Source of the DNA: an uncultured Spirochaetaceae bacterium
GTDB taxonomy: Bacteria > Spirochaetota > Spirochaetia > Sphaerochaetales > Sphaerochaetaceae
DNA: 64,000 bases
Direction: 5' to 3'
Assembly (NCBI GenBank): GCA_944389015.1
Contig: CALXKS010000074.1
Location: forward strand, 16,969 to 80,968
This document shows, piece after piece, positions 11,700-54,587 of the stretch; the stretch's first letter is position 1, and every line of letters starts with the position of its first letter. The notes beneath the pieces were generated by a model. It made no database searches and had not been told where the DNA came from. It saw only the letters and a program-made list of their open reading frames with translations. The translations under genes were made by a program, and so were the position numbers.

Positions 11700-13218
11700 T
11701 GAAATCCCTCCTGAGGCTCAGAGCCGCCTCAGATCCATCAATCGCAGCGGAAACTATTCCCCCTGCATACCCCGCGCCTTCTCCTGCAGGATAAAGTCCC
11801 CTGCCCTGATGCATCGAATCATCACGGAGAATGCGCACAGGAGAGGATGTCCTGGTCTCTGCCGCAATCACAGTGCCATCAGCGGTCAGGAACCGTCCTC
11901 TTGTCATATCGGAGAACGCGAGGAAACCAGCCCTCAGCGATGATACGACAACTGGGGGCAGGATGTCATCAAGACGGGAGGCCTTCAGCCCCGGTCTGTA
12001 AGTGGACTCAGCGAGAGTACCGGAAGGTCTGTCGAAGCAGAAATCCGTCATGCGCTCTGCAGGAGCTATGAAGCCCGGAATGAATGAAGATCGCTCAATC
12101 GATTCGATATACCTCATGACGCGGAAAGGATCATCTCCATCGATCTCCTCCTTCCGTATCTCGGTTATCATGCCGCTGTTGGCCCACCGGCCACGCCTTG
12201 ATGCAGGGGACATGCCATTTATGACCAACAGGCCCTCCTCCGTGGATGCGGGAACCACAGAGCCTCCTGGGCACATGCAGAATGAGTAGACTCCCCTTCC
12301 ATTGACCTGTGTCTTGAAGGAATATGATGCTGGAGGGAGAAAGGAGCTGCGTTTCCCGACTGCATGGTACTGGATCGAATCAATCAGGGACTGTGGCTGC
12401 TCAAGGCGGACCCCTACTGCAGTGCTCTTTGCCTCAAGCGCGAAACCATCCTTCAGAAGAAAGGAATATACATCCTTTGCGCTATGGCCAGCTGCAAGTA
12501 TCACAGGACCGGCAATCTCCTCTCCGCTCTCAAGGCATGCCCCCTTCACCTCATCGCCCGATCTTATCAGGCCTGTCACCCTGGATGAGAATCTGACCTC
12601 CCCGCCGCTTGCTGTTATCGTGCGTCTTATGTTCTCAATGATTCCTGGAAGCCTGTCAGAGCCTATATGCGGGTGCGAGTCATAGAGGATCGACTCATCG
12701 GCTCCATGCTGGACAAAAAGACGGAGTATCCTGCCCACGTCCCCCCTCTTCACGGATCTTGTATACAGCTTTCCATCGGAGTAAGCACCGGCTCCGCCTT
12801 CCCCGAATGCATAGTTCGACTCAGGATCAAGTATGCCCTTCTGTGAAAGCAAGGCAGTATCCATACGGCGCGAATGGACATCCTTCCCGCGCTCAAGGAC
12901 TATCGGACGGATACCGTTCTCGATCAGAGTCAGCGCGGCAAAAAGCCCTGCAGGCCCGGCTCCAACGACAACTGCAGCGGGAGAAGCGCCGACATAGGGG
13001 AATATGACAGGATTCTCCACAGCAGGATCCTCGCCTATATAAACGCGGATCCTTTCATTTATCTTTATATCCTTCCTTCTTGCATCGATGCTCTTCCTGA
13101 GGATTGTCATATGGGCAATATCATCGGAAGAGACTGAAAGCTTAACTGAAACGGCGCGCCTTCTTCCATCATCATTCTGCTCCTCGGGCCGGAGCACTAT
13201 ATCGATATCCCTGACCAT
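11692..13218 (-). CDS. COG2509-type FAD-dependent dehydrogenase
   Basis: A 508-residue flavoprotein. After about 80 N-terminal residues it has a dinucleotide-binding motif, AAVVVGAGPAGLFAAL, then GEGGAGAYSDGKLYT near 155-170 and AAGHSAKDVYSFL near 260, and near the C-terminus PAGEGAGYAGGIVSAAIDG. This is the uncharacterised FAD-dependent dehydrogenase family COG2509, widespread in anaerobes; the substrate is unknown. The start is set at 13218 (MVRDID). No ribosome-binding site is present, but a -10 box TACAAT lies six bases upstream, so the message is probably leaderless. It heads the operon with azlC and azlD. Confidence 0.85.
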   Translation of the reverse strand: MVRDIDIVLRPEEQNDDGRRRAVSVKLSVSSDDIAHMTILRKSIDARRKDIKINERIRVYIGEDPAVENPVIFPYVGASPAAVVVGAGPAGLFAALTLIENGIRPIVLERGKDVHSRRMDTALLSQKGILDPESNYAFGEGGAGAYSDGKLYTRSVKRGDVGRILRLFVQHGADESILYDSHPHIGSDRLPGIIENIRRTITASGGEVRFSSRVTGLIRSGDEVKGACLESGEEIAGPVILAAGHSAKDVYSFLLKDGFALEAKSTAVGVRLEQPQSLIDSIQYHAVGKRSSFLPPASYSFKTQVNGRGVYSFCMCPGGSVVPASTEEGLLVINGMSPASRRGRWANSGMITEIRKEEIDGDDPFRVMRYIESIERSSFIPGFIAPAERMTDFCFDRPSGTLAESTYRPGLKASRLDDILPPVVVSSLRAGFLAFSDMTRGRFLTADGTVIAAETRTSSPVRILRDDSMHQGRGLYPAGEGAGYAGGIVSAAIDGSEAALSLRRDFNG

Positions 13219-13224
13219 GCGGCG

Positions 13225-13283
13225 ATTGTACCTGATTAATGCTTGATGATGCAATTCACAGAAAGACCTGGAATATGTAGAAT
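13225..13283. promoter_or_regulatory. Divergent back-to-back promoters, both leaderless
   Basis: Minus strand: TTGCAT (13249-13254), 18 bases, TACAAT (13225-13230), then six bases to the ATG at 13218. Plus strand: TTCACA (13255-13260), 17 bases, TAGAAT (13278-13283), then six bases to the GTG at 13290. The two -35 boxes touch. Transcription should start at or next to the first base of each start codon. Confidence 0.7.
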
Positions 13284-13289
13284 CACGGT

Positions 13290-15143
13290 GTGAATATCCT
13301 ATCAATAGAGAATCTTTCCAAGACGCTTAATGATGAACCGCTCTTTGAGAATGCCACGCTGGGGCTTGAGGAGGGAGAGAAAGCCGGCATAGTCGGCAGG
13401 AACGGATCGGGGAAATCAACATTCCTCAAGGCCATTGCCGGAATCATCGTCCCGGATGATGGGAAGATATCGATGAAGAACGGCACGAACCTCTTCTATC
13501 TTCCCCAGGACATCGCTTTCAGGGATGGAGCGACAATCACCGATTTCTTCTATGACTCAGATAATCCCGTCATAAGGAAGCTTGCTGAGTACAGAGCATC
13601 CATAGAAGAGGGACGGAGCGACAGCCAGAGGCTCTTTGATGAGATCGAGAAGGACAACCTCTGGGAAGCGGAAAGAAGATTCGAAGGATACCTTGGGAAG
13701 CTCGGAATGGCAGAGCCCCTGACAAAGAGGATGTCGGAGCTCTCCGGCGGGGAGCAGAAGAAGACAGCGATAGCAAGAGCGCTCTCAGTCTCCCCTGACC
13801 TCCTGCTTCTCGATGAACCGACGAACCATCTTGATATCCCGTCGATCGAATTCCTGGAGAACTGGATATCGGAAAGCAGCGCTGCTGTGATCATCGTCAC
13901 CCATGACAGGCACATTCTCAACCAGTGCTGTTCCTCCATATGGGAGCTGGACAGAAAGCGCTTCTACCGCCATCCCGGATCGTTCTCCGAATATCTGGAA
14001 AGACGCGAAGAGCGCATAAGGATGAACGAGAAGGAGCAGGAAAGGCTTGAGACTATACTGAGAAGAGAGCGCAAGTGGCTTCTCAGAGGGCCAAAGGCCA
14101 GGACTGGTAAGGATAAGAACAGGAAGGACAGGATAGAGGAGATGGAAGACTCCCTCCACTCCGTCAGGGATCCTAAGCAGAAAGAGTTCACTTCCGGTGC
14201 GAGAAGGATGGGAAAGAAGGTTCTGGAAGCGGAGAATATAGCCAAGGGCTATGATGGGAAGATGCTCTTCTCATCATTCACATTCTCATTCCAGAAAGGA
14301 CAGAGGATCGGACTTATAGGAAGCAACGGCTCCGGAAAATCCACCCTCCTTGATATCCTCACAGGACGGACAGAACCAGATGAGGGAACTATAGACAAGG
14401 GTGTGAACACGCACTTCGGATACTATGATCAGATGGGCCGCGATCTCCGGTCCGATAAGACCATCATCGAATATGCCGAGGATATCGGGAAGACAATAAG
14501 GCTATCTGACAAGGAAGAGATGAGCGCATCATCATTTCTGGAGCGCTTCGGATTTCCTCCACGCATGCAGCGGACTCCTGTCGGCATGCTATCTGGAGGG
14601 GAAAGGCGCAGACTCTACCTCATAACAAGGCTTCTGTCCAACCCTAACTTCCTCATCCTCGATGAGCCTACCAATGATCTGGATATAGAGACGATAGAGA
14701 ACCTTGAGGACTATATCTCCTCTTTCAGCGGCACTGTGATGATAACATCCCATGACCGCACATTCCTCGATATTGCAACGGAGATGCTCCTTGTCATAAA
14801 GGATGGAAGGATAACCCTCTTTCCCGGTAACTACACAGAGTGGAAGGAAAGAGAGGATGAGGAGAGGAAAGAGGAAGCTCCGAAGGAAAAACCGAAGGCA
14901 GAACGCAGGGAAAGAGAGAGGAAGGGCCTCACATACAGAGAGAAGAAGGAGCTTGAGGAGATTGAATCGAAGATAGCGGAAACAGAGGAGCTTATCGCAA
15001 TCCTCGAAGCATCCTTCGCCTCTGCAGCCACTGATGAATACGGAACGATAGCTGAGAGGACGAAGCTATACAATGATAAGAAAGCAAAGCTTGAGGAGAT
15101 GACAGAGCGCTGGATGGAACTTGAGGAAAAGAACGAAGGATAA
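13290..15143 (+). CDS. uup: ABC-F family ATPase, Uup type
   Basis: A soluble 617-residue protein with two ATPase domains. Walker A motifs are GRNGSGKST (36-44) and GSNGSGKST (about 343-351); signature motifs are LSGGEQKK and LSGGERRR; Walker B segments are LLLLDEPTNHLD and FLILDEPTNDLD. The linker contains KWLLRGPKARTGKDKNR, typical of Uup, and the last 80 residues are a charged coiled coil that in Uup binds DNA or ribosomes. ABC-F proteins of this class act on the ribosome and affect transposon excision. The GTG start at 13290 has no ribosome-binding site but lies six bases after a good -10 box, so translation is probably leaderless. Confidence 0.9.
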   Translation: MNILSIENLSKTLNDEPLFENATLGLEEGEKAGIVGRNGSGKSTFLKAIAGIIVPDDGKISMKNGTNLFYLPQDIAFRDGATITDFFYDSDNPVIRKLAEYRASIEEGRSDSQRLFDEIEKDNLWEAERRFEGYLGKLGMAEPLTKRMSELSGGEQKKTAIARALSVSPDLLLLDEPTNHLDIPSIEFLENWISESSAAVIIVTHDRHILNQCCSSIWELDRKRFYRHPGSFSEYLERREERIRMNEKEQERLETILRRERKWLLRGPKARTGKDKNRKDRIEEMEDSLHSVRDPKQKEFTSGARRMGKKVLEAENIAKGYDGKMLFSSFTFSFQKGQRIGLIGSNGSGKSTLLDILTGRTEPDEGTIDKGVNTHFGYYDQMGRDLRSDKTIIEYAEDIGKTIRLSDKEEMSASSFLERFGFPPRMQRTPVGMLSGGERRRLYLITRLLSNPNFLILDEPTNDLDIETIENLEDYISSFSGTVMITSHDRTFLDIATEMLLVIKDGRITLFPGNYTEWKEREDEERKEEAPKEKPKAERRERERKGLTYREKKELEEIESKIAETEELIAILEASFASAATDEYGTIAERTKLYNDKKAKLEEMTERWMELEEKNEG

Positions 15144-27548: not shown

Positions 27549-27622
27549 TACGCCCTATTGGATTCGAACCAATCACCTACTGCTTAGAAGGCAGTTGCTC
27601 TATCCAGGTGAGCTAAGGGCGC
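27549..27622 (-). tRNA. tRNA-Arg (anticodon TCT)
   Basis: The 74-nt cloverleaf has an acceptor stem GCGCCCT/AGGGCGT (first pair G-U), D-arm AGCTCACCTGGATAGAGC, anticodon arm ACTGC-CTTCTAA-GCAGT, and T-arm ATTGG-TTCGAAT-CCAAT. The anticodon TCT reads AGA/AGG arginine codons. The discriminator base is A and the 3' CCA is not encoded. A strong terminator follows. Confidence 0.95.
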
Positions 27623-27744: not shown

Positions 27745-28251
27745 TTACAGTTCCAGTCCGTAATGCTCACCTGAGATGTACTTGCCATCGATATAGAACA
27801 GACGGGAATCGCTTCCTTCATGGACAAAGCCATTCCTTTCATAGAAGTCCCTGGCGGTTTTGTTGTCAGAGCGAACAAGGACTCCGATCTTTGTGATCAT
27901 GCGGTCCTTTGCTTCGGCAATGGCAAATTCAAGAAGGTGCTGAGAGATGCCCATTCCCCAGTAATTCTTCCGGACAGCTATTGCCATATAAGCACGGTGC
28001 CTTATCCTTGCACCCTCCCCCTGGACCTTTATGTCGCAGCTTCCGATTATCTTCCCATCGGATATTGCAACGGCAAACACATTCCTGCCCTTGCGCATCT
28101 CCCTGATGACATACTTCTCATCCTCAGGGTCGACTGATGAGAAATCGGAGGCAGAGAAGGATAGATTATCGGTATCGCCCCCGATAACCGTCATGAATTC
28201 AATAAGAGAACTAGCATCATCTTCGCGTATGATTCTGTAATCGGTATCCAT
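27745..28251 (-). CDS. GNAT family N-acetyltransferase
   Basis: A 168-residue GNAT protein. The acetyl-CoA loop reads RKNYWGMGISQHLLEFAI (about 93-110) and the C-terminal part has the common NKTARDFYERNGFVHEG. Acceptor unknown. It resembles RimI/ribosomal-protein-type acetyltransferases only in general shape. There is no ribosome-binding site; an extended -10 (TGATATAAT) ends nine bases before the ATG, so the mRNA has at most two or three untranslated bases. Its neighbour at 28313 is divergent. Confidence 0.85.
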   Translation of the reverse strand: MDTDYRIIREDDASSLIEFMTVIGGDTDNLSFSASDFSSVDPEDEKYVIREMRKGRNVFAVAISDGKIIGSCDIKVQGEGARIRHRAYMAIAVRKNYWGMGISQHLLEFAIAEAKDRMITKIGVLVRSDNKTARDFYERNGFVHEGSDSRLFYIDGKYISGEHYGLEL

Positions 28252-28260
28252 AATGCGATT

Positions 28261-28296
28261 ATTATATCAGCTAAACTAACTCTGATGGTATATAAT
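28261..28296. promoter_or_regulatory. Divergent -10 boxes for GNAT and aldose-epimerase genes
   Basis: Minus strand: extended -10 TG-A-TATAAT, with TATAAT at 28261-28266, nine bases before the GNAT ATG. Plus strand: TATAAT at 28291-28296, with a normal leader and AGGAG before the ATG at 28313. No good -35 is seen for either. Confidence 0.5.
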
Positions 28297-28312: not shown

Positions 28313-29173
28313 ATGATTTGCGAAATAAAAAAGAATGGAACTGTGATGAAGGTATTATCGCTAGGAGCAGAGCCCCAGAGCCTGGTGAAGGACGGGGTTG
28401 AATATATCTGGAATGGGGATAAGGAGTACTGGTTCCGCCATGCCCCTCTCCTTTTCCCGATGATCGGACCAACCAAGGATGACAAGATAGCCGCCAAAGG
28501 AAGAGAGTACTCGATGCCGAACAATGGCTTTGCAAGGGATACGGAGTTCGAGCTCGTCGAGAAGACAGAGGACTCTGTGACATTCCGTCTTGAGGATTCG
28601 GAGGAGACACGGTCAAAGTACTATCCTTACGGCTTTGTCCTTACAGCAACCTATACCGTCAGGGAAGACGGCTATGAGGCAAAGGCAGAGATCAGGGCAA
28701 AGGAGGATCTCTGGTATACATTCGGCTGGCATCCTGCATTCTCGCTTGATATGAACGGAAAGGGAACAGACCTTGAGACCTACTCCGTGTCATTTGAGCA
28801 GAATGAGAAACTTGATAGAAAATATGCCAAAAACGGAGTATTTGTAGTTGAGAATGATTTCATTGTCGGAGATGAGCTCAGACTGACAAGAGCAGAGACG
28901 GACAAGGGTGCGATCATCCTTCCTGGGGTGAAAAGCCGCGAGGTGACGCTCACAAGCAGCGAAGGCGAGCATGGAATCACCGCATTCATGGGAGACATGC
29001 CGCTTCTGACTGTGTGGACATGCGCTCCAAAGCATGGCCAGTATGTCTGCATAGAGCCGATGCTCTCATTCGGCGACACTACCCGCCCTCTTGATATAGA
29101 GAAGATGGAGGAGACAAAGCTCCTCAAGGGCGGGGAAAGCGTGACATATACGAATTTCTTCAGGATTTTCTAG
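28313..29173 (+). CDS. Aldose 1-epimerase family protein (LacX/YeaD-like)
   Basis: A 286-residue galactose-mutarotase-fold protein. It has LLFPMIGPTKDDK (about 45-57), MPNNGFARD (about 68-76), FGWHPAFSLD (about 140) and CIEPMLSF (about 245). In the family the His of FGWHP and the Glu of IEP are catalytic, and both are present. The other conserved His, normally in the (P/N)HGFAR segment, is Asn here (NNGFAR), so activity may be altered. The usual role is interconversion of alpha and beta sugar anomers. AGGAG precedes the ATG. Its 3' end overlaps the hemA-like gene by 14 bases, tail to tail. Confidence 0.85.
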   Translation: MICEIKKNGTVMKVLSLGAEPQSLVKDGVEYIWNGDKEYWFRHAPLLFPMIGPTKDDKIAAKGREYSMPNNGFARDTEFELVEKTEDSVTFRLEDSEETRSKYYPYGFVLTATYTVREDGYEAKAEIRAKEDLWYTFGWHPAFSLDMNGKGTDLETYSVSFEQNEKLDRKYAKNGVFVVENDFIVGDELRLTRAETDKGAIILPGVKSREVTLTSSEGEHGITAFMGDMPLLTVWTCAPKHGQYVCIEPMLSFGDTTRPLDIEKMEETKLLKGGESVTYTNFFRIF

Positions 29174-30254
29174 CAATCAGCTCTGACACAGCAGCCTTCC
29201 GTATGTTCTCATAGAGATCCTCGCGGAGGGCTTTTTCCTTCTCTGCATCCAGGCGGAGCGATGAGATAGCATCAGCTGAACGGCGGATGGAGTTCGATGC
29301 GATGCTCTCTGCCCTTTCATGCACGCTTCCTGCAATTTCAGCTTTCTTCTTCCAGGCTCTGAACTCAGAAACAGCCCTCTCCGCACCGGCTCTGACTGCT
29401 GCAATGACTTTCTCACGCTCAGGGAGTGGGACAGAAAGATCCTCTACCCGGATTGCATTGAATGAGGAGGGAAGATCAGTTGGAGAGGAAAGATCAAAGA
29501 GAAGCTTCCTTTCCACCAGAGGCCAGTCATTCTCCTCGAGCGTATGGTACAGCCCGGATGATGCGGATACCACTGCATCGAAAGCCCCGATTGATTCCCG
29601 TCTTGAGTCATATGGTATATGCCCTGCTCCTGGAGGAATGAGGAATGTCTTTGTATCGTCGCGGAGGGTCATCGTCACAGAATTGCCAGGAAGGAGGCAC
29701 TCCGCTGCAATCCTTGCCCCCTCGCCTGATCCGATTATAAGGACGGACCTTCCCTTCCCTATCCTCCTTGCCACCTCCTCCGCGATCGTTCTATCAAAGA
29801 CCCGAGTGTTCATCTCAGTATGGATGCTTTTCGAGAAGGCCACAGCCGATGAGAAGAGCTTCCGGAGAGCCGGGGATGCGGTCCCTGAAAGAGACGCAGC
29901 CTCAGCTGCTGCTGTCATCTGGCTCTGGATCGTATCCTCGCCGAATAATGGCGAGAGAACCCCGGATGAAAGAAGGAATATCCTTGAAAGAGCTTCATCT
30001 CCCTCATACTCATACCGGAACTGCTTCACTGCGGCAGGATTGAGAGACAGGGCTCTTTCGAGAGGCTCTATCGATGGCTTCCCCTCCGCGATGACCTCTG
30101 CCCTGTCACATGTCAGAAGGAAGATGAAAGGGAACCTGAATCTTCTCAGAAGCACTGAATGGATATGCATAAGGAAGCTTCCATCCCTGTTCTGGAGATG
30201 GGAAAACAGCTCTGGGGAGAGTGTGAAATCAATGCCTGCGGAATAAAGCTCCAT
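29160..30254 (-). CDS. hemA: Glutamyl-tRNA reductase-like protein
   Basis: The 364-residue protein keeps the plan of glutamyl-tRNA reductase: catalytic Cys49 in LLTCDRAEV (usual TCNR), GEDTIQSQ near 105 (usual GEDQILGQ), the NADPH-binding motif VLIIGSGEGARIA near 172-184, and a C-terminal helical dimerisation region rich in Arg and Glu. The enzyme makes glutamate-1-semialdehyde for tetrapyrroles from Glu-tRNA. No other heme, siroheme or cobalamin gene is in the window, and the sequence is quite divergent, so whether the pathway is complete is unknown. The gene has no ribosome-binding site; its ATG is six bases after a TATACT box. Confidence 0.78.
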   Translation of the reverse strand: MELYSAGIDFTLSPELFSHLQNRDGSFLMHIHSVLLRRFRFPFIFLLTCDRAEVIAEGKPSIEPLERALSLNPAAVKQFRYEYEGDEALSRIFLLSSGVLSPLFGEDTIQSQMTAAAEAASLSGTASPALRKLFSSAVAFSKSIHTEMNTRVFDRTIAEEVARRIGKGRSVLIIGSGEGARIAAECLLPGNSVTMTLRDDTKTFLIPPGAGHIPYDSRRESIGAFDAVVSASSGLYHTLEENDWPLVERKLLFDLSSPTDLPSSFNAIRVEDLSVPLPEREKVIAAVRAGAERAVSEFRAWKKKAEIAGSVHERAESIASNSIRRSADAISSLRLDAEKEKALREDLYENIRKAAVSELIARKS

Positions 30255-30260
30255 GCCATA

Positions 30261-30301
30261 AGTATACAGATATTGCAGATTATCGAAACAGCCTGTACGA
30301 T
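30261..30301. promoter_or_regulatory. Divergent leaderless promoters, hemA-like and response regulator
   Basis: Minus strand: -10 TATACT (30261-30266), six bases to the ATG at 30254. Plus strand: TTGCAG (30273-30278), 17 bases, TACGAT (30296-30301), six bases to the ATG at 30308. Neither gene has a Shine-Dalgarno sequence. Confidence 0.65.
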
Positions 30302-30307
30302 TTTCCT

Positions 30308-30979
30308 ATGACTATTCTCATTGTCGAGGATGATAGCGATATCAGGGCACTGATGGCTTTCCACCTCAGAAACCATGGATATACCACAGAGGAGGCAAAG
30401 GATGGAGAGGAGGCACTGGAGATGCTATCTTCATCTGTTCCTGACCTGGTGCTTCTTGATCTGATGCTTCCGAAGCTCAGCGGGCTGGATGTGCTCTCAG
30501 CGATAAGAAGCGGAAGCAGCACGAAGCGCATCCCTGTCATTGTCGCATCGGCTCTGACTGGTGAGAACGATATCATAAAGGCACTTGAGGACGGGGCCGA
30601 TGACTATATAACAAAGCCATTCTCCCCGAAGATACTCTGTGCGCGCGTCCACTCGCTCCTGAGGCGCTCAGGAAGGGAGATGGATGCCGTATCCACCTCC
30701 GGCGGTCTTAGCATAGACAAGGGAACAAGGGAATGCTTTGTATCGGGAGAGAAGATAGTGCTCACAGCGACCGAGTTCGATATCCTGCTCTCTCTTGTCG
30801 AGGCTGAGGGACATGTGCTGAGGCGCGGAGAGATAATAGAGAGGATCAAGGGAGCGGAGTACCATGTCACAGAACGCGCGATCGATGTGCAGATAGCTTC
30901 TATAAGGAAGAAGCTCGGGGATATGGGGAAGAACATCGCGACAGTATGGGGAATCGGGTACAGATATGCCGAGGAGTGA
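30308..30979 (+). CDS. OmpR/PhoB family response regulator
   Basis: The 223-residue protein has a receiver domain with acidic pocket EDD (residues 7-9), phospho-acceptor Asp51 in LVLLDLMLP and Lys103 in ITKPF. A winged-helix DNA-binding domain follows (LTATEFDILLSLVEAEGHVLRR and TERAIDVQIASIRKKLGD). It resembles PhoB. The start is leaderless. Its stop overlaps the kinase gene by 14 bases, so the pair is co-expressed. Target genes are not evident from the window. Confidence 0.92.
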   Translation: MTILIVEDDSDIRALMAFHLRNHGYTTEEAKDGEEALEMLSSSVPDLVLLDLMLPKLSGLDVLSAIRSGSSTKRIPVIVASALTGENDIIKALEDGADDYITKPFSPKILCARVHSLLRRSGREMDAVSTSGGLSIDKGTRECFVSGEKIVLTATEFDILLSLVEAEGHVLRRGEIIERIKGAEYHVTERAIDVQIASIRKKLGDMGKNIATVWGIGYRYAEE

Positions 30980-32018: not shown

Positions 32019-33024
32019 TGTACGAGAATGAGATTGTCGGAGAGATCGACGAGAAGTCCGTGGCTCTGAATACAAGACCTATGGTCCCATAGAAGCCGCT
32101 GGAGCCTCCACGGATGAAAAAGCTAACATAGCCGTTATCAGCATTGAAGGAGAACCATTCATGGTGAAGCTCGCGGTATGAGAGAGCGATCGTAAGGTCC
32201 GTATCCGGCAGGAACTGGAATGTTATGTCCCCTTCTGCCTCTATCTTCCTTGTAGAGCCATCGACAAGGCCTGTGATCGAGAACGAGAGGCGCGGCCTGA
32301 CAAGCATGAGATCCCCTTCTCTGGTGAAGCGTCCTCCCTCAAGGGCAAGGGATACAGTCGTGGACTCCGCAAGTGTATCCCATCCAAGGTAGAGATTGTT
32401 GTTCTTCAGCGTCAGCAGCTTCCCTACATAGATGCCTGCAGACACTGGGCTGAGCTCAAGGATAGCCCCGACGCCAAGATCGAAGAACTCACTTCCAGGA
32501 TCCCTGTCGAATGGGGAAAGCCAGGCATTGACAAAGACATCTCCGATATTGTCCATGGTCTTGTCGCGCCTGACCATCTGGTTTCCGCCCGATATCCTCG
32601 CACCTATAGAGAAATGGGGAAAGGCATATGCGGCATCAAGCTCTATCTTAAGAGATGAGTAGATATCATAGTTGGAAGACGAAGGACTGACCCTGTCGAA
32701 CTCCGATCCGAATGATGCGGTGAGAGCGATGTACTTGGAAATGAACGTGGCATCAATGCTCCATAGCTGATCCTGGATGAATGACATCGTGCCCTTGCCG
32801 AAATCCGCGGCATTCCATGAATCGCTTGCGCTTACCGTCAGAGCGAACAGACCGGGCTCAACCTCCATCATCGGAAGAGCTGCAGGATTGGCGAACATAT
32901 CATAGAAACGGCCGGAGTATGCAACCGACTGATACGGAGAGTCCATTGCATATCTATCATCCACAGCAGCGGAAAGCGGTAAAATGATCAGAATAGCGAC
33001 AGCAATCGCTTTTAGCCGTTTCAT
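32011..33024 (-). CDS. Secreted, probably outer-membrane beta-barrel protein
   Basis: The 337-residue protein starts with a signal peptide of about 20 residues ending SAA. The mature part alternates polar and hydrophobic residues in many short strands with aromatic ends (FDLGVGAILELS, VSLALEGGRF, FYGTIGLVFRA, ISFSYIS) and closes with an aromatic/polar strand, as outer-membrane barrels do. I do not recognise the family; spirochaetes have several such barrel proteins. The start is set at 33024: a perfect -10 TATAAT with TG extension ends seven bases upstream and there is no ribosome-binding site. A longer frame to 33186 runs into dinB and is not plausible. Confidence 0.7.
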   Translation of the reverse strand: MKRLKAIAVAILIILPLSAAVDDRYAMDSPYQSVAYSGRFYDMFANPAALPMMEVEPGLFALTVSASDSWNAADFGKGTMSFIQDQLWSIDATFISKYIALTASFGSEFDRVSPSSSNYDIYSSLKIELDAAYAFPHFSIGARISGGNQMVRRDKTMDNIGDVFVNAWLSPFDRDPGSEFFDLGVGAILELSPVSAGIYVGKLLTLKNNNLYLGWDTLAESTTVSLALEGGRFTREGDLMLVRPRLSFSITGLVDGSTRKIEAEGDITFQFLPDTDLTIALSYRELHHEWFSFNADNGYVSFFIRGGSSGFYGTIGLVFRATDFSSISPTISFSYIS

Positions 33025-33031
33025 AATGGGG

Positions 33032-33063
33032 ATTATACCAGAATAAGGGCAATGTGGTACACT
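33032..33063. promoter_or_regulatory. Divergent extended -10 promoters, both leaderless
   Basis: Minus strand: TGG-TATAAT, with TATAAT at 33032-33037, seven bases before the ATG at 33024. Plus strand: TGG-TACACT, with TACACT at 33058-33063, six bases before the GTG at 33070. No strong -35 is present on either side, as is usual with TGn-extended -10 boxes. Confidence 0.65.
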
Positions 33064-33069
33064 GACAGA

Positions 33070-34233
33070 GTGGGACAGGTATTCTTTCATATCGATCTCG
33101 ATGCCTTCTTTGCATCCGTCGAGATCCTCGACCATCCGGAATACAGAGACAAGCCCCTGATAATAGGGACACCGGGGCCGCGCCATGTCGCATCCACATG
33201 CTCATACGAAGCAAGGAAGTATGGAGTTCACAGCGCAATGCCCATGACGACAGCTCTGAGACTTTGCCCCGATGCCATATGCATAAAAGGAAGGATGGAC
33301 AGATATGCGGAGAAGAGCCGGGAGGTCATGGGTATAATCAGCTCATTCGCCCCGGGCTTCCTTCAGGTATCGATCGATGAGGCTTTCCTGGATCTCACGG
33401 GTATGGAGAGGATCTATCCGCTTCCAGGGAAAGCCGCGAAGAGTCTGAAGGAACGGATACTTTCCGAGACAGGGCTTACTGTATCCATCGGTGTCGCATC
33501 CTCACGCTTCATTGCAAAGCTTGCCTCCGACTACAGAAAGCCCGATGGGCTTACAATCGTTCCAAGGGGCAAGGAAGAGCTCTTCGTCGATACAGTGGGA
33601 TTAAGAAAACTCTGGGGCATCGGGGACTCAATGCTCAGAGCGCTTGAGAACAAGGGAATAAAGAGCACCGAGCGCCTGAGATCCTACAGCGAAGAGGATC
33701 TGAAGAGGATGTTCGGGGCCGCATCAGGCACTTATCTTTATAGCGTATCAAGAGGCATGGATCCGGGGATATATCAGGGAGAGGCGAAATCCAGATCGAT
33801 ATCCACAGAGCGCACCTACTACCCTGACCTGTACTCCACCGATGCCGTCGAGAACATACTCCTCGAGATGAGCGAGGAAGTGATGTTCCGCGCTTTTGAT
33901 GAGAAGAAGATACCCAGGACCGTATCAGTCAAGCTCCGTTACGGGGATTTTTCGACAATCACCATGCAGACTACGCCTTCCAGTGCGATATATTCATCGA
34001 TGGATGTCTACAGAATAGCGAAGGACCTTTTCTTCTCAAGATGGAAGGGCGAAGGCATAAGGCTAATAGGAGTTGCCCTCCAGAGCATCTATGATGGCGA
34101 TGATGTCGAACAGGGAGAGTTCTTCAGGGAGCGTGAAATGAAGGAGCGTGAGCTGGAGAAGACAATCCTGGAACTTGGGAGGAATGGAAGCAAGGTAATG
34201 CGCCTGAGGCACCTCGAAGATACACGGTACTGA
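33070..34233 (+). CDS. dinB: DNA polymerase IV (Y family)
   Basis: A 387-residue Y-family polymerase. It has the N-terminal FFHIDLDAFFASVE with metal-binding Asp, YEARKYGV with steric-gate neighbourhood, and the second metal motif VSIDEAFLDLT near 100. SIGVASSRFIAKLASD, the helix-hairpin-helix-like LWGIGDSML and the little-finger domain follow. It carries out translesion synthesis. The GTG at 33070 is preferred because the conserved N-terminus begins there and a TGn-extended -10 is six bases upstream. The C-terminus lacks a recognisable beta-clamp motif of classical form. Confidence 0.92.
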   Translation: MGQVFFHIDLDAFFASVEILDHPEYRDKPLIIGTPGPRHVASTCSYEARKYGVHSAMPMTTALRLCPDAICIKGRMDRYAEKSREVMGIISSFAPGFLQVSIDEAFLDLTGMERIYPLPGKAAKSLKERILSETGLTVSIGVASSRFIAKLASDYRKPDGLTIVPRGKEELFVDTVGLRKLWGIGDSMLRALENKGIKSTERLRSYSEEDLKRMFGAASGTYLYSVSRGMDPGIYQGEAKSRSISTERTYYPDLYSTDAVENILLEMSEEVMFRAFDEKKIPRTVSVKLRYGDFSTITMQTTPSSAIYSSMDVYRIAKDLFFSRWKGEGIRLIGVALQSIYDGDDVEQGEFFREREMKERELEKTILELGRNGSKVMRLRHLEDTRY

Positions 34234-34309: not shown

Positions 34310-34318
34310 TGCTACTCT
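34310..34318 (+). promoter_or_regulatory. Extended -10 of leaderless trmL
   Basis: TGC-TACTCT, with TACTCT at 34313-34318, is followed by six bases (TCACAC) and the ATG at 34325. No Shine-Dalgarno sequence is present. Confidence 0.5.
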
Positions 34319-34324
34319 TCACAC

Positions 34325-34834
34325 ATGCTCAGCATATGCCTTTTCGAACCGGAGATACCGCAGAACACAGGGAATATAGCACGCACATGCGCAGTGACAG
34401 GAACACATCTTCACCTTGTCCGGCCTCTGGGCTTTGACATCTCGGAAAAGGCTGTGCGCCATGCCGGCCTGGACTACTGGAGCGATGTTGATATAACGGT
34501 GCATGAGAGTGTTGATGCTTTTCTGGAGAAATACAAGGATAGAAGGCTCTACTTTTTCTCAACAAAAGGCAGGAATGTCTACAGCGATGTTGTATATCCT
34601 GCCGATGAAGATGTATTCTTCATCTTCGGAAAGGAAAGCAGGGGCATCGATGAGGAGATACTTCTCCAGCATCCCGATACCACTCTCCGCATCCCGATGC
34701 TGAGCACGATGAGGAGCCTGAACCTGTCCAACAGCGCTGCGATAGCGGCATATGAATACTACAGGCAGCTTGGCTTTCCCTGTCTCGGGAAGGAAGGAGA
34801 GCTGCATGGGAAAAGGAAATGGGAGAACTTATGA
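34325..34834 (+). CDS. trmL: tRNA (cytidine/uridine-34 2'-O)-methyltransferase
   Basis: A 169-residue SPOUT methyltransferase with the three knot motifs: PEIPQNTGNIARTC (9-22), FFIFGKESRGI (about 98-108) and IPMLSTMRSLNLSNSAAIAAYEY (about 122-144). TrmL methylates the wobble ribose of tRNA-Leu isoacceptors using S-adenosylmethionine. The N-terminus fits the family exactly, and the start appears leaderless. Its stop overlaps the proC start (ATGA). Confidence 0.92.
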   Translation: MLSICLFEPEIPQNTGNIARTCAVTGTHLHLVRPLGFDISEKAVRHAGLDYWSDVDITVHESVDAFLEKYKDRRLYFFSTKGRNVYSDVVYPADEDVFFIFGKESRGIDEEILLQHPDTTLRIPMLSTMRSLNLSNSAAIAAYEYYRQLGFPCLGKEGELHGKRKWENL

Positions 34835-38403: not shown

Positions 38404-39100
38404 AAGGCAGATACATAATAGTCCAGACAATAGCGGCGATGATGGGGAATGCGATCCTGTACCAGCCTCCTATATACCTTTCAAGGATGGTAAGAGGATT
38501 GCCCTCTGCCGGGCCGTTCATGAAGAAGAAGTTCGTCCCAAGGGCGTTGTTCACGAAGTAGATCGCGACTCCGTAGAGCACTATGAATGGCACAAGCCTT
38601 ATGAGCCTTCTGAATGAAGGCCTGAATCCTCCGGAAAGCAGCATGGCAGGATAGAGCGCGATGAGTATGTGTATCGAGAAGCTGTGGAAGCACATTATGT
38701 TGATAAGCGGAAGATTCATCCAGTCCGGGAACACGAGCGCCATAAGCGCTGTAGGCAGGGAAACCGCATAAAGATACTCGGCAAGATAGACAGAGCCGGA
38801 AACAGCATGGAAGAATGCTATGAATACGGATATCGAGCAGAGATGGAGCGGAAGGAACTCCCAGATCCACTGCCCTGTCGGTATCGTGACAGCATATTTC
38901 AGAGCCTCATCCGCAAGAAGGAGAACGGCAAGGATGATCCTTATCCTCCGTCTTGTCCCTTCATTGCTTCTGCTGTACTTCCTTCCAAGCACAAGGCACA
39001 GGACGGCCGCGAGCATGAGCCATAGAAGATGCCCTATCGAGAAAGTACCCATTCCATAACCATCAGGAATGGCCTCTGATGTATACAGCCATGGTTCCAT
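38381..39100 (-). CDS. TIGR02206-type (YwaF-like) integral membrane protein
   Basis: A 239-residue protein with about six membrane helices. The N-terminus has FSIGHLLWLML, then the family's PLHLCSISVFIAF near 110 and HSFSIHILIALYPAML near 160. Function is unknown; the family is found in Bacillus (YwaF) and many anaerobes. The start at 39100 is preferred over a frame reaching 39211 inside xseA. A TGC-extended -10 TATTAT ends eight bases upstream and there is no ribosome-binding site. Confidence 0.82.
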   Translation of the reverse strand: MEPWLYTSEAIPDGYGMGTFSIGHLLWLMLAAVLCLVLGRKYSRSNEGTRRRIRIILAVLLLADEALKYAVTIPTGQWIWEFLPLHLCSISVFIAFFHAVSGSVYLAEYLYAVSLPTALMALVFPDWMNLPLINIMCFHSFSIHILIALYPAMLLSGGFRPSFRRLIRLVPFIVLYGVAIYFVNNALGTNFFFMNGPAEGNPLTILERYIGGWYRIAFPIIAAIVWTIMYLPFSRPARS

Positions 39101-39108
39101 AGTTACTG

Positions 39109-39142
39109 ATAATAGCATCACTAAGGCGATTTCTGCTACAAT
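39109..39142. promoter_or_regulatory. Divergent extended -10 promoters for YwaF-like gene and xseA
   Basis: Minus strand: TGC-TATTAT, with TATTAT at 39109-39114, eight bases before the ATG at 39100. Plus strand: TGC-TACAAT, with TACAAT at 39137-39142, six bases before the ATG at 39149. Both genes lack ribosome-binding sites. Confidence 0.65.
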
Positions 39143-39148
39143 AACGGC

Positions 39149-40537
39149 ATGGAAAGCTACGACATCTTCGGCAGAACGCTCACTGTAAGCGAAGCAAACG
39201 GCATAATACATGATACTGTCGAGGAGATCTTCTACGAGCTGAGGATCGAAGGTGAGATCTCAGGCTTCCGTCCGGCCTCATCGGGACACTGGTATTTCAC
39301 GCTCAAGGACAGCTCAAGCGCAATCGATGCCGCGGTATTCCGTTCTGCCCAGTATGCAATGGAGTATCCGAAGAATGGAGATCTTGTCGTAGCAAAGGGC
39401 TCCCTATCCTACTACACCAGGAACGGCAGGCTCACATACGTCATCAGGGAGATGAGGAAAAAGGGAGAGGGAGACATCCTGGAGATGCTCGAGAAGCGGA
39501 AGGAATACTACCGTGGGCTCGGGTATTTCGATGAGGACAGGAAGAAGCCGATACCGGAGGAGATAAGGACTCTCGGTGTTGTCACAAGCCCTACAGGAGC
39601 AGCTATCCGCGATATCCTGAATGTGACAAAGCGCAGAGCCCCCTCCCTTGATATATTGATCTTCCCTGCGAAGGTCCAGGGTGATGGAAGCGCCGAGTCC
39701 ATAGCATCGCGCATCAGGCAGGCAGATAACTTCCAGGCATGCGATCTTCTGATAATAGGCCGTGGAGGCGGAAGCACGGAGGATCTCCTATGCTTCTCCG
39801 ATCCAGAGGTCATAGAGGCAATCCATAACTGCTCCATACCTATAATCTCAGCTGTCGGACATGAGATAGACTGGCCGATCTCAGACTATGCAGCAGACAG
39901 GCGCGCACCTACCCCATCTGCCGCTGCAGAGATAGCGACCGAGACCATATTCCGCAGACGTGAAAGACTTGGTAATGCGCTATATGGTTCGGAAAGCATA
40001 ATCCGTGGCAGGATAGCGGAGATGAGGCTGCGGCTCTCCGATGCACTCAGCAGCCTTTCCATTCTTGAGAAGAAGGTGCTCTCGCTTGAAGGCCGGATAC
40101 CCTCATCGGAGGATCTGAGGAAAATGCTTATTCTCCGTGTACAGAATGCTGAGACAAGAGTCGGATACGCAGAAGAGGATATACAGAACTGCATTGAGAA
40201 GCGGATCAGGGAAGCTTCAGCCAGGATCTCGATCAGCATTGAAAGAGAGGAGAATGCCATGAAGGAGAGGGTATCATCCGCATCAAGGCTTCTTTCCAGG
40301 CTCATCCCCTCTTCCAATGAGAGAATGAAAGCCCGGGTTGCTGTATCAAGGACAAGGGTAGATGCACTTGTCCGTGAATCGGAAGCGCTCTCCCCTCTTC
40401 TCATACTCCGACGCGGATACTCGGTGACGGAGAAGGAAGATGGAAGCATCGTCAGGCAGTCCAGCCAGCTGAAAGCCGGCGAGATTATAAGGACAAGACT
40501 TATGGACGGTACAGTGCTGTCCAGAGTGGAGGAATAG
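39149..40537 (+). CDS. xseA: Exodeoxyribonuclease VII large subunit
   Basis: The 462-residue protein has an N-terminal OB fold (SGFRPASSGHWYFTLKD, residues about 33-50). The catalytic region includes GVVTSPTGAAIRDIL near 145, IIGRGGGSTEDLLCFSDPEV near 205 and SAVGHEIDWPISDYAADRRAPTPSAAAE near 235. A long helical C-terminal part binds XseB. The complex degrades single-stranded DNA from both ends. The mRNA appears leaderless. xseB follows after one base, with GGAGGAATAG at the 3' end of xseA serving as its ribosome-binding site. Confidence 0.94.
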   Translation: MESYDIFGRTLTVSEANGIIHDTVEEIFYELRIEGEISGFRPASSGHWYFTLKDSSSAIDAAVFRSAQYAMEYPKNGDLVVAKGSLSYYTRNGRLTYVIREMRKKGEGDILEMLEKRKEYYRGLGYFDEDRKKPIPEEIRTLGVVTSPTGAAIRDILNVTKRRAPSLDILIFPAKVQGDGSAESIASRIRQADNFQACDLLIIGRGGGSTEDLLCFSDPEVIEAIHNCSIPIISAVGHEIDWPISDYAADRRAPTPSAAAEIATETIFRRRERLGNALYGSESIIRGRIAEMRLRLSDALSSLSILEKKVLSLEGRIPSSEDLRKMLILRVQNAETRVGYAEEDIQNCIEKRIREASARISISIEREENAMKERVSSASRLLSRLIPSSNERMKARVAVSRTRVDALVRESEALSPLLILRRGYSVTEKEDGSIVRQSSQLKAGEIIRTRLMDGTVLSRVEE

Positions 40538-43097: not shown

Positions 43098-43127
43098 TTG
43101 CCAACACAGACGGAAAAGTGAGATGCT
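43098..43127 (+). promoter_or_regulatory. Candidate leaderless promoter of bcp
   Basis: TTGCCA (43098-43103), 18 bases, a weak -10 GATGCT (43122-43127), then six bases to the ATG at 43134. No ribosome-binding site is visible. The -10 is poor, so this is less secure than the other leaderless cases. Confidence 0.35.
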
Positions 43128-43133
43128 CAGTAT

Positions 43134-43601
43134 ATGATCGAAGAAAAGACAATCGCACCGGATTTCACTCTCCCAGACCAGAATGGCAAGGATGTAACGC
43201 TTTCCTCATTCAGAGGAAAGAAGGTGATCCTCTATTTCTATCCAAAGGACAATACCCCTGGATGCACAAAGGAGGCATGCTCTCTCAGGGACAATCTCCC
43301 CGACTTCGACAGTCTCAATGCAGTCGTGATCGGAGTCAGCCCGGACAAGAGCGAATCACATATGAAGTTCAGGGATAAGTTCACACTGCCCTTCACCCTC
43401 CTTTCAGATCCTGAGCATAAAGCGATGGAGCTCTATGGTGCATATGGAGAGAAGGTTCTCTATGGAAAGAAGACGATGGGCGTCATCAGATCGACATTCC
43501 TCATCGGGGAAGATGGAACTGTCCTTAAAGTCTGGAAGAAAGTGAACACCGCAACGCATGGTGATGATGTCAGGAAATACCTGAAGGAGCACGAGCTCTA
43601 G
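43134..43601 (+). CDS. bcp: Thiol peroxidase, Bcp/PrxQ type
   Basis: The 155-residue peroxiredoxin has APDFTLPDQNGKDVTLSSFRGKK, then the active site YPKDNTPGCTKEACSLRD with peroxidatic Cys44 and resolving Cys49, five residues apart as in PrxQ. It reduces hydroperoxides with thioredoxin-like electron donors. It is a lone gene whose 3' end faces the next gene at an 11-base distance. Confidence 0.93.
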   Translation: MIEEKTIAPDFTLPDQNGKDVTLSSFRGKKVILYFYPKDNTPGCTKEACSLRDNLPDFDSLNAVVIGVSPDKSESHMKFRDKFTLPFTLLSDPEHKAMELYGAYGEKVLYGKKTMGVIRSTFLIGEDGTVLKVWKKVNTATHGDDVRKYLKEHEL

Positions 43602-51637: not shown

Positions 51638-51699
51638 TCCGGAAACCGATACTAGACTAAAACTGTAAAAATATCAGCAGTTTCAATGTAAAAATTCCA

Positions 51700-52869: not shown

Positions 52870-52913
52870 TAAATCCTGAAACCGCTCTGGCAATCATGCA
52901 ATTGACAGCTGCA

Positions 52914-53831
52914 TCACTTCAGGAATCCCATTATGATCTTCTCCTCAGCCTCTTCCTCCGTAAGCCCGAATGTACGGAGCTTCAAGAGCTGCTCGCCAGC
53001 GATCTTCCCTATCGCGGCTTCATGTATAAGGGATGCATCGATATTATTCGCATCAAGCTGCGGAGTCGCGCTGACAGTTCCATGCTCTGTGATTATCGCA
53101 TCGCACTCACTGTGCCCGGAGCACCTTGCGTTGCCCTTTATGACAGAGTGGTATGCCTGATGGGACTCATCCCTTGCAACCGATCTCGAGACGATATCGA
53201 CAGAGCTGTCATCACCGTTAAGATCCACAGAGAACTCAGTGATGGCCCTGTCATCACCATTTGTGAGAATGCGTTCATGGACGATGAAGGAACCGGACCG
53301 GGCAACAGCTGCCCTTGTCGTGCGCTTTGCAGAGCTCACCCCGCCAATCTGCACGGAGTCGATCTCCAGAGTGCTGCCCTCTCCTATATCAGCTGTGGTA
53401 ACAGGATCTATGCTCCGCTTCGCAATCCCATTGCCAAGACCCACATGCTTCTCTATGTACTTCACATAGCTTCTATCGCCTATGATGAAATGGTGTATGC
53501 CATTATGCCTTGCAGCTTCTCCATGCTCTGAATGTACTCCGCATCCTGCCTCTATCTCGATATTGCAGTCTGTCCCGATATGGAAATCGTTATAGACAAG
53601 ATCATCAATGCCTCCATGTGTAACGCAGGCAGGGATTGCAAGACGCTCCCCTCTGGTCCCATTGTCAACATAGATATCAAGGCCGGGCCTGTCCTTCTTT
53701 GGAACGATATGGATATGCTGGCTGCTCTTCATAGCGATGCCCTTACCATCCTCCCTGATTGAATATGCATCGCATGATGATGCCTTCCAGTCAGAGACAA
53801 TCCTCAGTATCTCCTCCGTTCTCTCATTCAT
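52914..53831 (-). CDS. sufB: SufB/SufD-type Fe-S assembly scaffold, short (SmsB-like)
   Basis: The 305-residue protein has the SufB/D beta-helix core: HIHIVPKKD, IEAGCGVHSEHGEAARHNGIHHFIIGD and the conserved C-terminal GHSECDAIITEHGTVSATPQLDANNIDASLIHEAAIGKI, where Cys, Glu and His are likely cluster ligands. Full SufB is about 480 residues; this short form with SufC alone matches the minimal SMS systems of anaerobes. The ATG at 53831 overlaps the sufC stop by eight bases. No sufS or sufU is in the window. Confidence 0.88.
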   Translation of the reverse strand: MNERTEEILRIVSDWKASSCDAYSIREDGKGIAMKSSQHIHIVPKKDRPGLDIYVDNGTRGERLAIPACVTHGGIDDLVYNDFHIGTDCNIEIEAGCGVHSEHGEAARHNGIHHFIIGDRSYVKYIEKHVGLGNGIAKRSIDPVTTADIGEGSTLEIDSVQIGGVSSAKRTTRAAVARSGSFIVHERILTNGDDRAITEFSVDLNGDDSSVDIVSRSVARDESHQAYHSVIKGNARCSGHSECDAIITEHGTVSATPQLDANNIDASLIHEAAIGKIAGEQLLKLRTFGLTEEEAEEKIIMGFLK

Positions 53832-54552
53832 TTGATGCCCCCTTCCAGCCTGCAGGACATGCCGGACAGCACTGCGGATGGAGAATATGCCCGAGAACAT
53901 CTTTTCCGGCACCGTCCTCCTTGACCCTGCCATTCTCGATTACGATTATCCTGTCGGCAATGCTCAGGATCCTCTCCTGATGCGAGATGATTATCTCGGT
54001 ATTCCCAGAGGCCTTCATCTCGGAGAATGCATCTATGAGACCTGCGAATGACCACAAGTCTATGCCAGCCTCTGGCTCATCGAATATCGAGAGCTTCGTA
54101 CCGCGCGCAAGAACAGTCGCAATCTCTATGCGCTTGATCTCTCCCCCGGAGAGAGATGCATCGACATCTCTGTCGATATAGTCCTTCGCACATAGGCCTA
54201 CCTTCGAAAGGAGCATGCAGAGCCCTTTCTCATCAAGGGCTTCCGGAGATGCTATCTCCAAGAGGTCCCTTACAGTGAGTCCCTTGAAGCGGACAGGCTG
54301 CTGGAAGGCATAGCTGATGCCCCTTCTTGCCCTCTCCGTCACATCAAGATCCGTTATATCCGAACCATCAAAGAAGATTCTTCCGCCATCTGGCTTCTCA
54401 ATACCTGCTATTATCTTCGCAAGCGTAGTCTTCCCTCCTCCATTCGGGCCTGTGATTGCTACAAGACCGCTCTCTGCAACCACGAAGCTTACGGAGTCGA
54501 TCACGCGCTTGCCATCAGGAGTGCTCCAGGAAATATCTCTCAGTTCAAGCAT
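53824..54552 (-). CDS. sufC: Fe-S assembly ATPase SufC (SmsC-like)
   Basis: The 242-residue ABC ATPase has Walker A GPNGGGKTT (35-43), Q-loop AFQQPVRFKGL, signature LSGGEIKRIEIA near 135 and Walker B LSIFDEPEAGID. The C-terminus carries a short Cys-containing tail, HPQCCPACPAG. SufC drives cluster assembly on SufB. No Shine-Dalgarno sequence precedes the ATG; a -35/-10 pair ends six bases upstream, so it is another leaderless candidate. Confidence 0.9.
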   Translation of the reverse strand: MLELRDISWSTPDGKRVIDSVSFVVAESGLVAITGPNGGGKTTLAKIIAGIEKPDGGRIFFDGSDITDLDVTERARRGISYAFQQPVRFKGLTVRDLLEIASPEALDEKGLCMLLSKVGLCAKDYIDRDVDASLSGGEIKRIEIATVLARGTKLSIFDEPEAGIDLWSFAGLIDAFSEMKASGNTEIIISHQERILSIADRIIVIENGRVKEDGAGKDVLGHILHPQCCPACPAGWKGASNE

Positions 54553-54558
54553 AGATAA

Positions 54559-54587
54559 AAGATAATGATTATGAAATCAATAGTGAA
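54559..54587 (-). promoter_or_regulatory. Leaderless promoter of sufC
   Basis: Minus strand: TTCACT (54582-54587), 17 bases, TATCTT (54559-54564), six bases, ATG at 54552. Confidence 0.5.

Follow-up and report, generated by a model that had tools for sequence, protein, structure and literature searches.

Gene starts with a nearby -10 box in the window

Twelve gene starts were considered in the window, i.e. the whole 64,000-nt stretch of DNA analysed, which comes from an uncultured spirochaete. They belong, among others, to a Y-family DNA polymerase, xseA and a response regulator, and two pairs of them enclose very short divergent regions. All coordinates are positions in the window, and the gap is the number of bases between the -10-like hexamer and the start codon (Table 1).

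Table 1. Predicted promoter elements and leaderless assignments at the named sites, and the two short divergent regions
Start or region	Gene product or feature	Assignment	Positions	Strand	-10-like hexamer	Gap	Further elements
13218	FAD-dependent protein	leaderless head	13216..13254	-	TACAAT (13225-13230)	6	-35-like TTGCAT (13249-13254), spacer 18
13290 (GTG)	ABC-F type ATPase	leaderless head	13255..13292	+	TAGAAT (13278-13283)	6	-35-like TTCACA (13255-13260), spacer 17
28251	GNAT	head	28249..28266	-	TATAAT (28261-28266)	9 to ATG	
30254	GlutR_N domain	leaderless head	30252..30288	-	TATACT (30261-30266)	6	
30308	response regulator	leaderless head	30273..30310	+	TACGAT (30296-30301)	6	-35-like TTGCAG (30273-30278)
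33024	no Pfam match	leaderless or near-leaderless head	33022..33060	-	TATAAT (33032-33037)	7	extended -10, TGG
33070 (GTG)	Y-family DNA polymerase	leaderless head	33035..33072	+	TACACT (33058-33063)	6	extended -10, TGG
34325	SpoU methylase	probable leaderless head	34313..34327	+	TACTCT, weak (34313-34318)	6	extended -10, TGC
39100	TMEM164-family protein	leaderless or near-leaderless head	39098..39114	-	TATTAT (39109-39114)	8	
39149	xseA (exonuclease VII large subunit)	leaderless head	39137..39151	+	TACAAT (39137-39142)	6	extended -10, TGC
43134	bcp	rejected	43122..43136	+	GATGCT only		
54552	ABC ATPase	without support from relatives	54550..54564	-	TATCTT, weak (54559-54564)	6	
33024/33070	45-bp divergent region	two predicted promoters interleave	33025..33069	.			
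39100/39149	48-bp divergent region	same design	39101..39148	.			1-2-base overlaps at best-scoring spacers

The sequence-only reading had named eleven of these starts as leaderless, with bcp as a weaker twelfth. All eleven hexamers and gaps were found in the sequence as listed. At 28251, the same TATAAT has a gap of 6 to the ATT triplet immediately preceding the ATG. The -35 boxes at the twelve sites matched at just two to five of six positions each.

Frequency of the boxes and promoter marks

The gene-level survey covered 819 kb of the genome (the window and 40 stretches). The gene caller was simple, and 38 of 762 called genes were excluded due to their location at stretch edges. For the strict-box counts, starts were picked on coding potential alone.

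Strict -10-like hexamers at gaps of 6-8 preceded 66 of 399 transcription-unit heads in the 819 kb, compared with 11.5 expected. Divergent heads accounted for 41 hits (of 214; 6.6 expected from gaps of 15-54), heads 31-60 bp behind a same-strand gene for 12 (of 52) and heads more than 60 bp behind such a gene for 13 (of 133). Just six of 325 operon-internal genes had such a box. Across the whole genome, TATAAT-N6-ATG occurred 40 times and the reversed pattern 6 times; TABAAT occurred 94 times at gap 6 and 50 times at gap 12. The excess of boxes beyond chance was thus confirmed, and it was seen outside the window too.

A Shine-Dalgarno match of at least four bases was absent from 62 of the 66 strict-box heads. 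At 13218, a 4-base Shine-Dalgarno-like match is present at a spacing of 12. Genes further down the operons had been said to carry normal sites, and most do: matches of at least four bases were found in 251 of 325 internal genes vs 74 of 214 divergent heads.

The predicted leaderless class comprised 75 of 214 divergent heads. Three dinucleotide shuffles gave 11-20, and a shifted gap gave 18-23, so that the genome-wide count exceeded its controls. Among internal genes, the class comprised 9 of 323. By the shuffles, chance would account for about one-fifth of the divergent heads called leaderless and for about one-third of all 113 genes so called. After subtraction of the shuffles, the class amounts to ~10% of genes and 27% of divergent heads. 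Hence, leaderless starts are common at heads in the sense of roughly one in four divergent heads above background, but not of most heads. Moreover, there was little excess for heads separated from a preceding same-strand gene by more than 60 bp (16 of 135 with optimised starts vs 10-13 in shuffles). A near-constant gap of six had been proposed as well. Six is the commonest value (62 of 102 predicted leaderless heads), but the other 40 heads have gaps of 7 (28), 8 (8) or 9 (4).

Three marks played no part in choosing the hexamers: a -35 signal, an extended -10 (TGn) and, at base -1, a pyrimidine. The mean match to TTGACA was 2.70 at spacer 17, compared with 1.14-1.82 at other spacers from 12 to 23 and with 1.51 for 1,861 similar hexamers located within genes. 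TGn was found in 41 of the 102 predicted leaderless heads vs 7.4% of controls. In 91 boxes of relatives, the mean -35 match at spacer 17 was 2.99. From these marks, the hexamers as a set are read as belonging to promoters; this is a property of the set, and single sites are weak.

Transcription usually starts at YR. A pyrimidine was present at -1 in 60 of 62 gap-6 genes, 24 of 28 gap-7 genes and 83 of the 91 boxes of relatives, compared with 131 of 220 Shine-Dalgarno-led heads and 135 of 283 Shine-Dalgarno-led internal genes. This fits a predicted YR start with +1 on the start codon. The pyrimidine alone is not specific, because heads with neither box nor Shine-Dalgarno sequence lean the same way (57 of 77).

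At many transcription-unit heads, a sigma-70-type promoter thus appears to lie near enough to the start codon for the first base of the codon to be the predicted transcription start, which would yield leaderless mRNAs. We give this reading a probability of roughly 0.88. As the promoter-like box is just 6-8 bases upstream, messages likely start on the codon with no leader. RNA polymerase would initiate at the first base of the start codon. Leaderless mRNAs elsewhere are bound at the 5'-terminal start codon by 70S ribosomes, or by 30S subunits with IF2, and the same may apply here. Ribosomes of this lineage would need to start routinely on bare 5' start codons. They likely use both the leaderless and the Shine-Dalgarno route, since operon-internal genes mostly retain the Shine-Dalgarno sequence. 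Tools expecting that sequence likely misplace gene starts in this lineage.

The AT-rich hexamer could also be a leader element aiding Shine-Dalgarno-independent translation (e.g. by binding ribosomal protein S1), with the true transcription start further up. The AT-rich bias upstream of non-Shine-Dalgarno genes has been interpreted as a translation element, as outlined in PMC5397173. However, such an element has no need of a -35 placed exactly 17 bp away, of TGn or of a constant pyrimidine at -1. It would also be expected before operon-internal genes, where the box is rare, and we consider it improbable. A non-canonical ribosome site of the Bacteroidetes type goes with an AT-rich signal before internal genes too and with little Shine-Dalgarno use. 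The internal-gene counts given above (6 and 251 of 325) do not agree with such a site.

Conservation in relatives and spread across the class

For nine named genes (all but 39100, 54552 and bcp), relatives retain the box and its spacing though the flanks diverge. In genus loci, with the window's own copy included, boxes were found at 13218 in 9 of 10 (gap 6-8), at 13290 in 9 of 9 (all at gap 6), at 30254 in 9 of 11, at 30308 in 10 of 12, at 33024 in 13 of 15 and at 33070 in 16 of 17. For xseA, 20 of 22 relatives had a box; this count omits L022 (cut at the contig start) and L026 and L027 (other phyla, no box). At 28251, the box was found in 7 of 14 located homologues including its own. The five nearest orthologues have TACAAT or TAGAAT at gap 6 or 7 to the ATG, and the boxless homologues are 28-51% identical. 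At 34325, a better box was found at gap 6-7 in 11 of 17 genus loci, while the copy in the window did not reach the threshold; outside the genus, one of three has a box. For 39100, all three relatives with a homologue found beside xseA have a box.

Loci were skipped if the alignment started past residue 25 or if no start codon was near. This left 11 of 15 located loci for the GlutR gene, 12 of 15 for the response regulator and 14 of 16 for 28251. Partial or paralogous loci were left unscored (L151-L154, L182-L184, L197-L201 and L228-L241).

Two of the proposed starts were rejected. At 54552, one of six genus loci had a box (the window copy only), and the other five had a Shine-Dalgarno sequence. 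The bcp start has only GATGCT in the window; a box was found in 1 of 16 genus loci and a Shine-Dalgarno sequence in 14 of 16.

Misread start codons behind real promoters are a still less probable explanation. Translation would then begin at a downstream codon after an ordinary short leader. Alternative in-frame starts do exist in several reading frames, the gene caller was simple, and at 30254 and 33024 the start lies a few codons off the query's first codon in many relatives (start at that first codon in just 1 of 10 and in 7 of 14, respectively). Against this, the start codons of the other seven of the nine genes align with the query's first codon in every located relative, and for the Y-family polymerase and for xseA the frames look similar right from their beginning. 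Because the relatives' starts align in this way, translation at 33070 likely begins with the GTG, rather than with the in-frame ATG at 33052. At 33024, the base at -1 is a purine in four of the nine relatives whose box is at gap 6 or 7, and further relatives have gap 8; hence, a leader of 1-2 nt is possible there.

Chance, i.e. TAnnnT hexamers being frequent in AT-rich upstream DNA, is the least probable account: it could apply to single weak sites such as the non-conserved 54552 and 43134 and to the share of calls matched by shuffles, but for the set it is refuted by the shuffles, the gap-shifted controls, the reversed pattern and the conservation in relatives.

The promoter-at-start signal was widespread in the class. 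In a phylum scan with the same hexamer at gap 12 as the control, family f5 lacked it, and it was not seen in family f2. A reversed-pattern control had been dropped in favour of the gap-12 control because AT-rich families such as f24 looked enriched with it too. Eleven other genomes were profiled with 12-81 heads each, which is small, and they were used only summed and as a negative control. In nine other class genomes together, the 449 heads had 38 strict boxes at gaps of 6-8 (10.7 expected), and the 307 internal genes had 2. G072, an AT-rich genome outside the class, showed no excess (3 boxes vs 9.4 expected).

Outside the genus, the polymerase gene at 33070 had a box in none of ten loci and a Shine-Dalgarno sequence in seven of these. 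It thus appears leaderless in one genus and mostly Shine-Dalgarno-led in other families. The class Spirochaetia may be a place to study how genes switch between leadered and leaderless forms.

Known leaderless systems and short divergent regions

Of the features of bacterial leaderless (TA-led) genes, a box excess, promoter marks, a missing Shine-Dalgarno sequence and concentration at heads were found here. An mRNA 5' end on the start codon, with indirect support from base -1, and translation from a 5'-terminal start codon are predicted. Leptospira is on a different branch of the phylum from this spirochaete. The sequence-only reading was not aware of a general leaderless habit in this group; earlier work had predicted such genes in Spirochaetes (PMC3160421) and mapped them in Leptospira (PMC5243855). 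Leaderless genes were predicted in 6 of 18 Spirochaetes genomes by Zheng et al. 2011 (1.8-6.9% of genes, compared with ~10% here by a different method; PMC3160421). dRNA-seq of Leptospira interrogans gave ~440 mRNAs with a 5'UTR of <10 nt, half of them <2 nt (PMC5243855). The ends were measured in that member of the same phylum, whereas they are predicted here. A link to short divergent regions was not found in the available text of that account (PMC5243855). The literature search found nothing on leaderless mRNA with Treponema transcription start sites and, judged by titles, no start-site map of Borrelia burgdorferi.

In Actinobacteria and Deinococcus-Thermus, TA-led genes have TANNNT ~10-12 bp before the start codon, as described in PMC3160421 and PMC12340547. 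Shared with the spirochaete are the box near the start, the missing Shine-Dalgarno sequence and the presence of Shine-Dalgarno-led genes in the same genome. The reported leaderless shares are 19.2% (Actinobacteria) and 39.4% (Deinococcus-Thermus) on average (PMC3160421), or ~30% of ORFs in Deinococcus-Thermus (PMC12340547). The predicted share here is lower, whereas the promoter is fuller, with a -35 at 17 bp and an extended -10. Since leaderless genes are known elsewhere, including some spirochaetes, our results likely add a further group to those with this habit.

The predicted leaderless class was concentrated at divergent pairs with starts <80 bp apart. The leaderless form would be favoured there, probably because loss of the leader lets two promoters share a short stretch. 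Between 33024 and 33070, each -10 overlaps the best -35 position of the opposite gene, and the region is 45-48 bp long in 10 of 15 genus loci including its own. The region between 39100 and 39149 is 47-48 bp in three of three relatives. A genome-wide preferred spacing of 45-49 bp was dropped due to too few pairs.

Tentatively, and with less than even odds, leaderless starts might permit a divergent module of minimal size. In it, two sigma-70 promoters would be interleaved in 45-50 bp, with each -10 on the -35 of the other. The two polymerases would thereby be mutually exclusive, so that the pair would be expressed as a switch. The length of 45-48 bp would be under selection at both regions, and individual genes across the class would have gained or lost leaderless use. 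No title among the literature matches listed linked divergent promoters with leaderless mRNA. The association with short divergent regions offers a testable reason for retention of the leaderless form.

Excess of close -10 boxes at the heads of transcription units

According to the sequence-only reading, eleven genes have a -10-like box 6–9 nt before the start codon; all eleven are present in the sequence as claimed. The genome containing the window comprises 2.03 Mb in 83 contigs. The whole genome contains 40 instances of TATAAT-N6-ATG and 6 of its reversed form; TABAAT-N6-ATG was found 94 times, compared with 50 times for TABAAT at gap 12 (nucleotides between box and start codon).

For the gene level, the window and 40 stretches of the genome (819 kb) were used. 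A codon-pair model blind to upstream signals called 762 genes. The counts cover the 724 of them whose neighbour and upstream sequence could be read, and the chance expectation for boxes at gaps 6–8 was taken from gaps 15–54. With coding-only starts, such a box preceded 41 of 214 divergent heads (6.6 hits expected), 12 of 52 heads lying 31–60 bp behind a same-strand gene and 13 of 133 heads lying >60 bp behind one. All heads pooled gave 66/399 (11.5 expected), and operon-internal genes gave 6/325. As had been claimed, Shine-Dalgarno sites were usual inside operons: a match of at least 4 bases was found in 251 of 325 internal genes vs 74 of 214 divergent heads.

In a second count, the start was picked using both signals; the figures are those at the lowest threshold. 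The leaderless class then held 75/214 divergent heads, 13/52 heads at 31–60 bp, 16/135 far heads and 9/323 internal genes, and three dinucleotide shuffles gave 11–20, 3–4, 10–13 and 2–11, respectively. The genome-wide comparison with shuffles, as proposed in the sequence-only reading, bore out the excess for divergent heads, and far heads made up a small share of it. Gap-shifted controls called 18–23 divergent heads leaderless. After subtraction of the shuffle mean, ~59 of 214 divergent heads (27%) and ~75 of 724 genes (10%) were predicted to be leaderless.

The -35 match, TGn and base -1 were not used in selecting leaderless heads. For 102 predicted leaderless heads, the TTGACA match was highest with a spacer of exactly 17 bp ahead of the box; the value there was 2.70, compared with 1.51 for 1,861 similar hexamers from within genes. 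TGn stood ahead of the box in 41 of 102 (7.4% of control hexamers). Base -1 was a pyrimidine in 60/62 gap-6 and 24/28 gap-7 predicted leaderless genes; the values were 131/220 for Shine-Dalgarno-led heads, 135/283 for Shine-Dalgarno-led internal genes and 57/77 for heads with neither signal. At sigma-70 promoters, the start is usually a purine after a pyrimidine, 7–8 nt past the -10 box, which here would be the first base of the start codon. The pyrimidine at -1 and the spacing are taken as the best sequence evidence for the predicted leaderless transcripts.

Geometry of divergent pairs

Among 107 divergent pairs, 39 of 68 genes with starts <80 bp apart were called leaderless, as were 9 of 28 at 80–119 bp and 27 of 118 at ≥120 bp (short vs long spacing, Fisher p = 2.6e-6; p < 4e-4 at two stricter thresholds). 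Coding-only starts with strict boxes gave 24/64, 5/34 and 12/116. The median distance was 63 bp for the 15 pairs with both sides leaderless and 168 bp for pairs with none. Pairing of leaderless sides beyond independence was not seen (15 pairs vs 13.1 expected).

The 33024/33070 pair is absent from these counts because 33070 was missed by the gene caller due to an overlapping ORF. Its starts are 45 bp apart. The plus-strand -10 box (33058–33063) overlaps the minus-strand -35 position (33055–33060), and the minus-strand -10 box lies on the plus-strand -35 position at 33032–33040. We infer that the two polymerases would exclude each other in this region. Of 15 genus loci, the window's own among them, ten have a distance of 45–48 bp and five one of 58–70 bp. 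The distance was more variable for 13218/13290 (46–82 bp in 9 loci) and 30254/30308 (31–104 bp in 10 loci).

Spread across the phylum and earlier reports

TABAAT at gap 6 was compared with gap 12 in 296 genomes of the phylum. With family f5 set aside, the class Spirochaetia comprised 88 genomes, including that of the window, and 9169 occurrences at gap 6 stood against 6084 at gap 12; gap 6 was ahead in 85 of 88 genomes, with p < 0.01 in 46. No gap-6 excess was found in the 30 small genomes of f5 (2227 vs 2395) or in the three genomes of family f2 (134 vs 131). Outside the class (178 genomes), the counts were 28629 and 27429, with gap 6 ahead in 100 genomes and p < 0.01 in 6. At the gene level, nine other class genomes had boxes at gaps 6–8 before 38 of 449 heads (10.7 expected) and 2 of 307 internal genes; outside the class, one genome (G072) had 3 boxes vs 9.4 expected and another (G011) 2 vs 0.6.

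In published work, leaderless genes with TANNNT boxes are established in bacteria (PMC3160421; PMC12340547) and were predicted in 6 of 18 Spirochaetes genomes, on average 3.9% (PMC3160421); ~440 mRNAs of Leptospira interrogans have leaders <10 nt (PMC5243855). GeneMarkS-2 results, as cited in a 2021 paper, place 21.6% of bacterial species in the leaderless group (PMC9581028). The weak signal outside the class is no evidence that leaderless genes are lacking there, given that such mRNAs have been mapped in Leptospira and that the scan would overlook different boxes or gaps. The general habit had been described as unfamiliar in this group: its extension to this lineage is likely, but the Spirochaetes predictions and the Leptospira mapping already exist. 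Titles and abstract openings among the matches listed did not contain the link to short divergent regions. What is seen here belongs to a known kind; its promoter anatomy is clear, and it is tied to short divergent regions.

Window genes and their relatives

Of 22 relatives, 20 have a TAnnnT-type box at gap 6–8 upstream of xseA (39149), the gap being 6 in 18 of them; the flanks diverge while the box stays. Judged by the xseA protein, the nearest named relatives of the window's genome are uncultured Spirochaetaceae or Spirochaetales MAGs and Candidatus Ornithospirochaeta (Spirochaetaceae in NCBI taxonomy).

Window features and boxes in relatives (genus loci: same GTDB genus, own copy included, box at gaps 6–8)
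Position	Feature	Box	Remark
8338	additional candidate leaderless ATG	TATCCT at gap 6	alternative to ATG at 8317
13218	FAD-dependent protein	9/10 genus loci	
13290	ABC-F type ATPase	9/9 genus loci	
27549–27622	tRNA gene		minus strand
28251	GNAT	gap 6 or 7 to ATG in five nearest orthologues	
30254 (29160–30254)	sole Pfam match: glutamyl-tRNA reductase N-terminal domain (PF05201)	9/11 genus loci	divergent from response regulator in 10 genus loci
30308	response regulator	10/12 genus loci	
33024	no Pfam match	13/15 genus loci	
33070	Y-family DNA polymerase	16/17 genus loci	
34325	SpoU methylase	11/17 genus loci	window's own TACTCT failed the box test
39100 (38381–39100)	bacterial TMEM164 family member (PF14808, E 2e-43)	3/3 relatives with homologue adjoining xseA	adjoining homologue in only 3 relatives, vs 22 with xseA

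For 28251, the box was found in 7 of 14 located homologues (own included). In the window copy, where gap 6 leads to an ATT triplet and gap 9 to ATG, the mRNA may carry a leader of 3 nt, or translation may begin at the ATT.

With the window's own copies set aside, nine genes (39100 is not one of them) have 110 orthologous starts in relatives, and the box lay at gap 6 or 7 in 91. Base -1 was a pyrimidine in 83 of these 91, TGn was present in 42, and a spacer of 17 gave a -35 match of 2.99. In ten loci from outside the genus, the gene for the Y-family polymerase had no such box, and in 7 of the ten it had a Shine-Dalgarno site; genes therefore appear to shift between leaderless and Shine-Dalgarno forms.

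Two of the proposed leaderless genes did not hold up: 54552 (ABC ATPase) had the box in 1 of 6 genus loci and a Shine-Dalgarno site in 5, and bcp (43134), put forward as a weak twelfth, had the box in 1 of 16 and a Shine-Dalgarno site in 14. The window copy of bcp itself has neither a Shine-Dalgarno site nor a good -10 box. The bcp/PrxQ peroxiredoxin orthologues L250, L252 and L253 (genus loci; relatives of window 43134–43601) each contain one in-frame TGA, possibly encoding selenocysteine.
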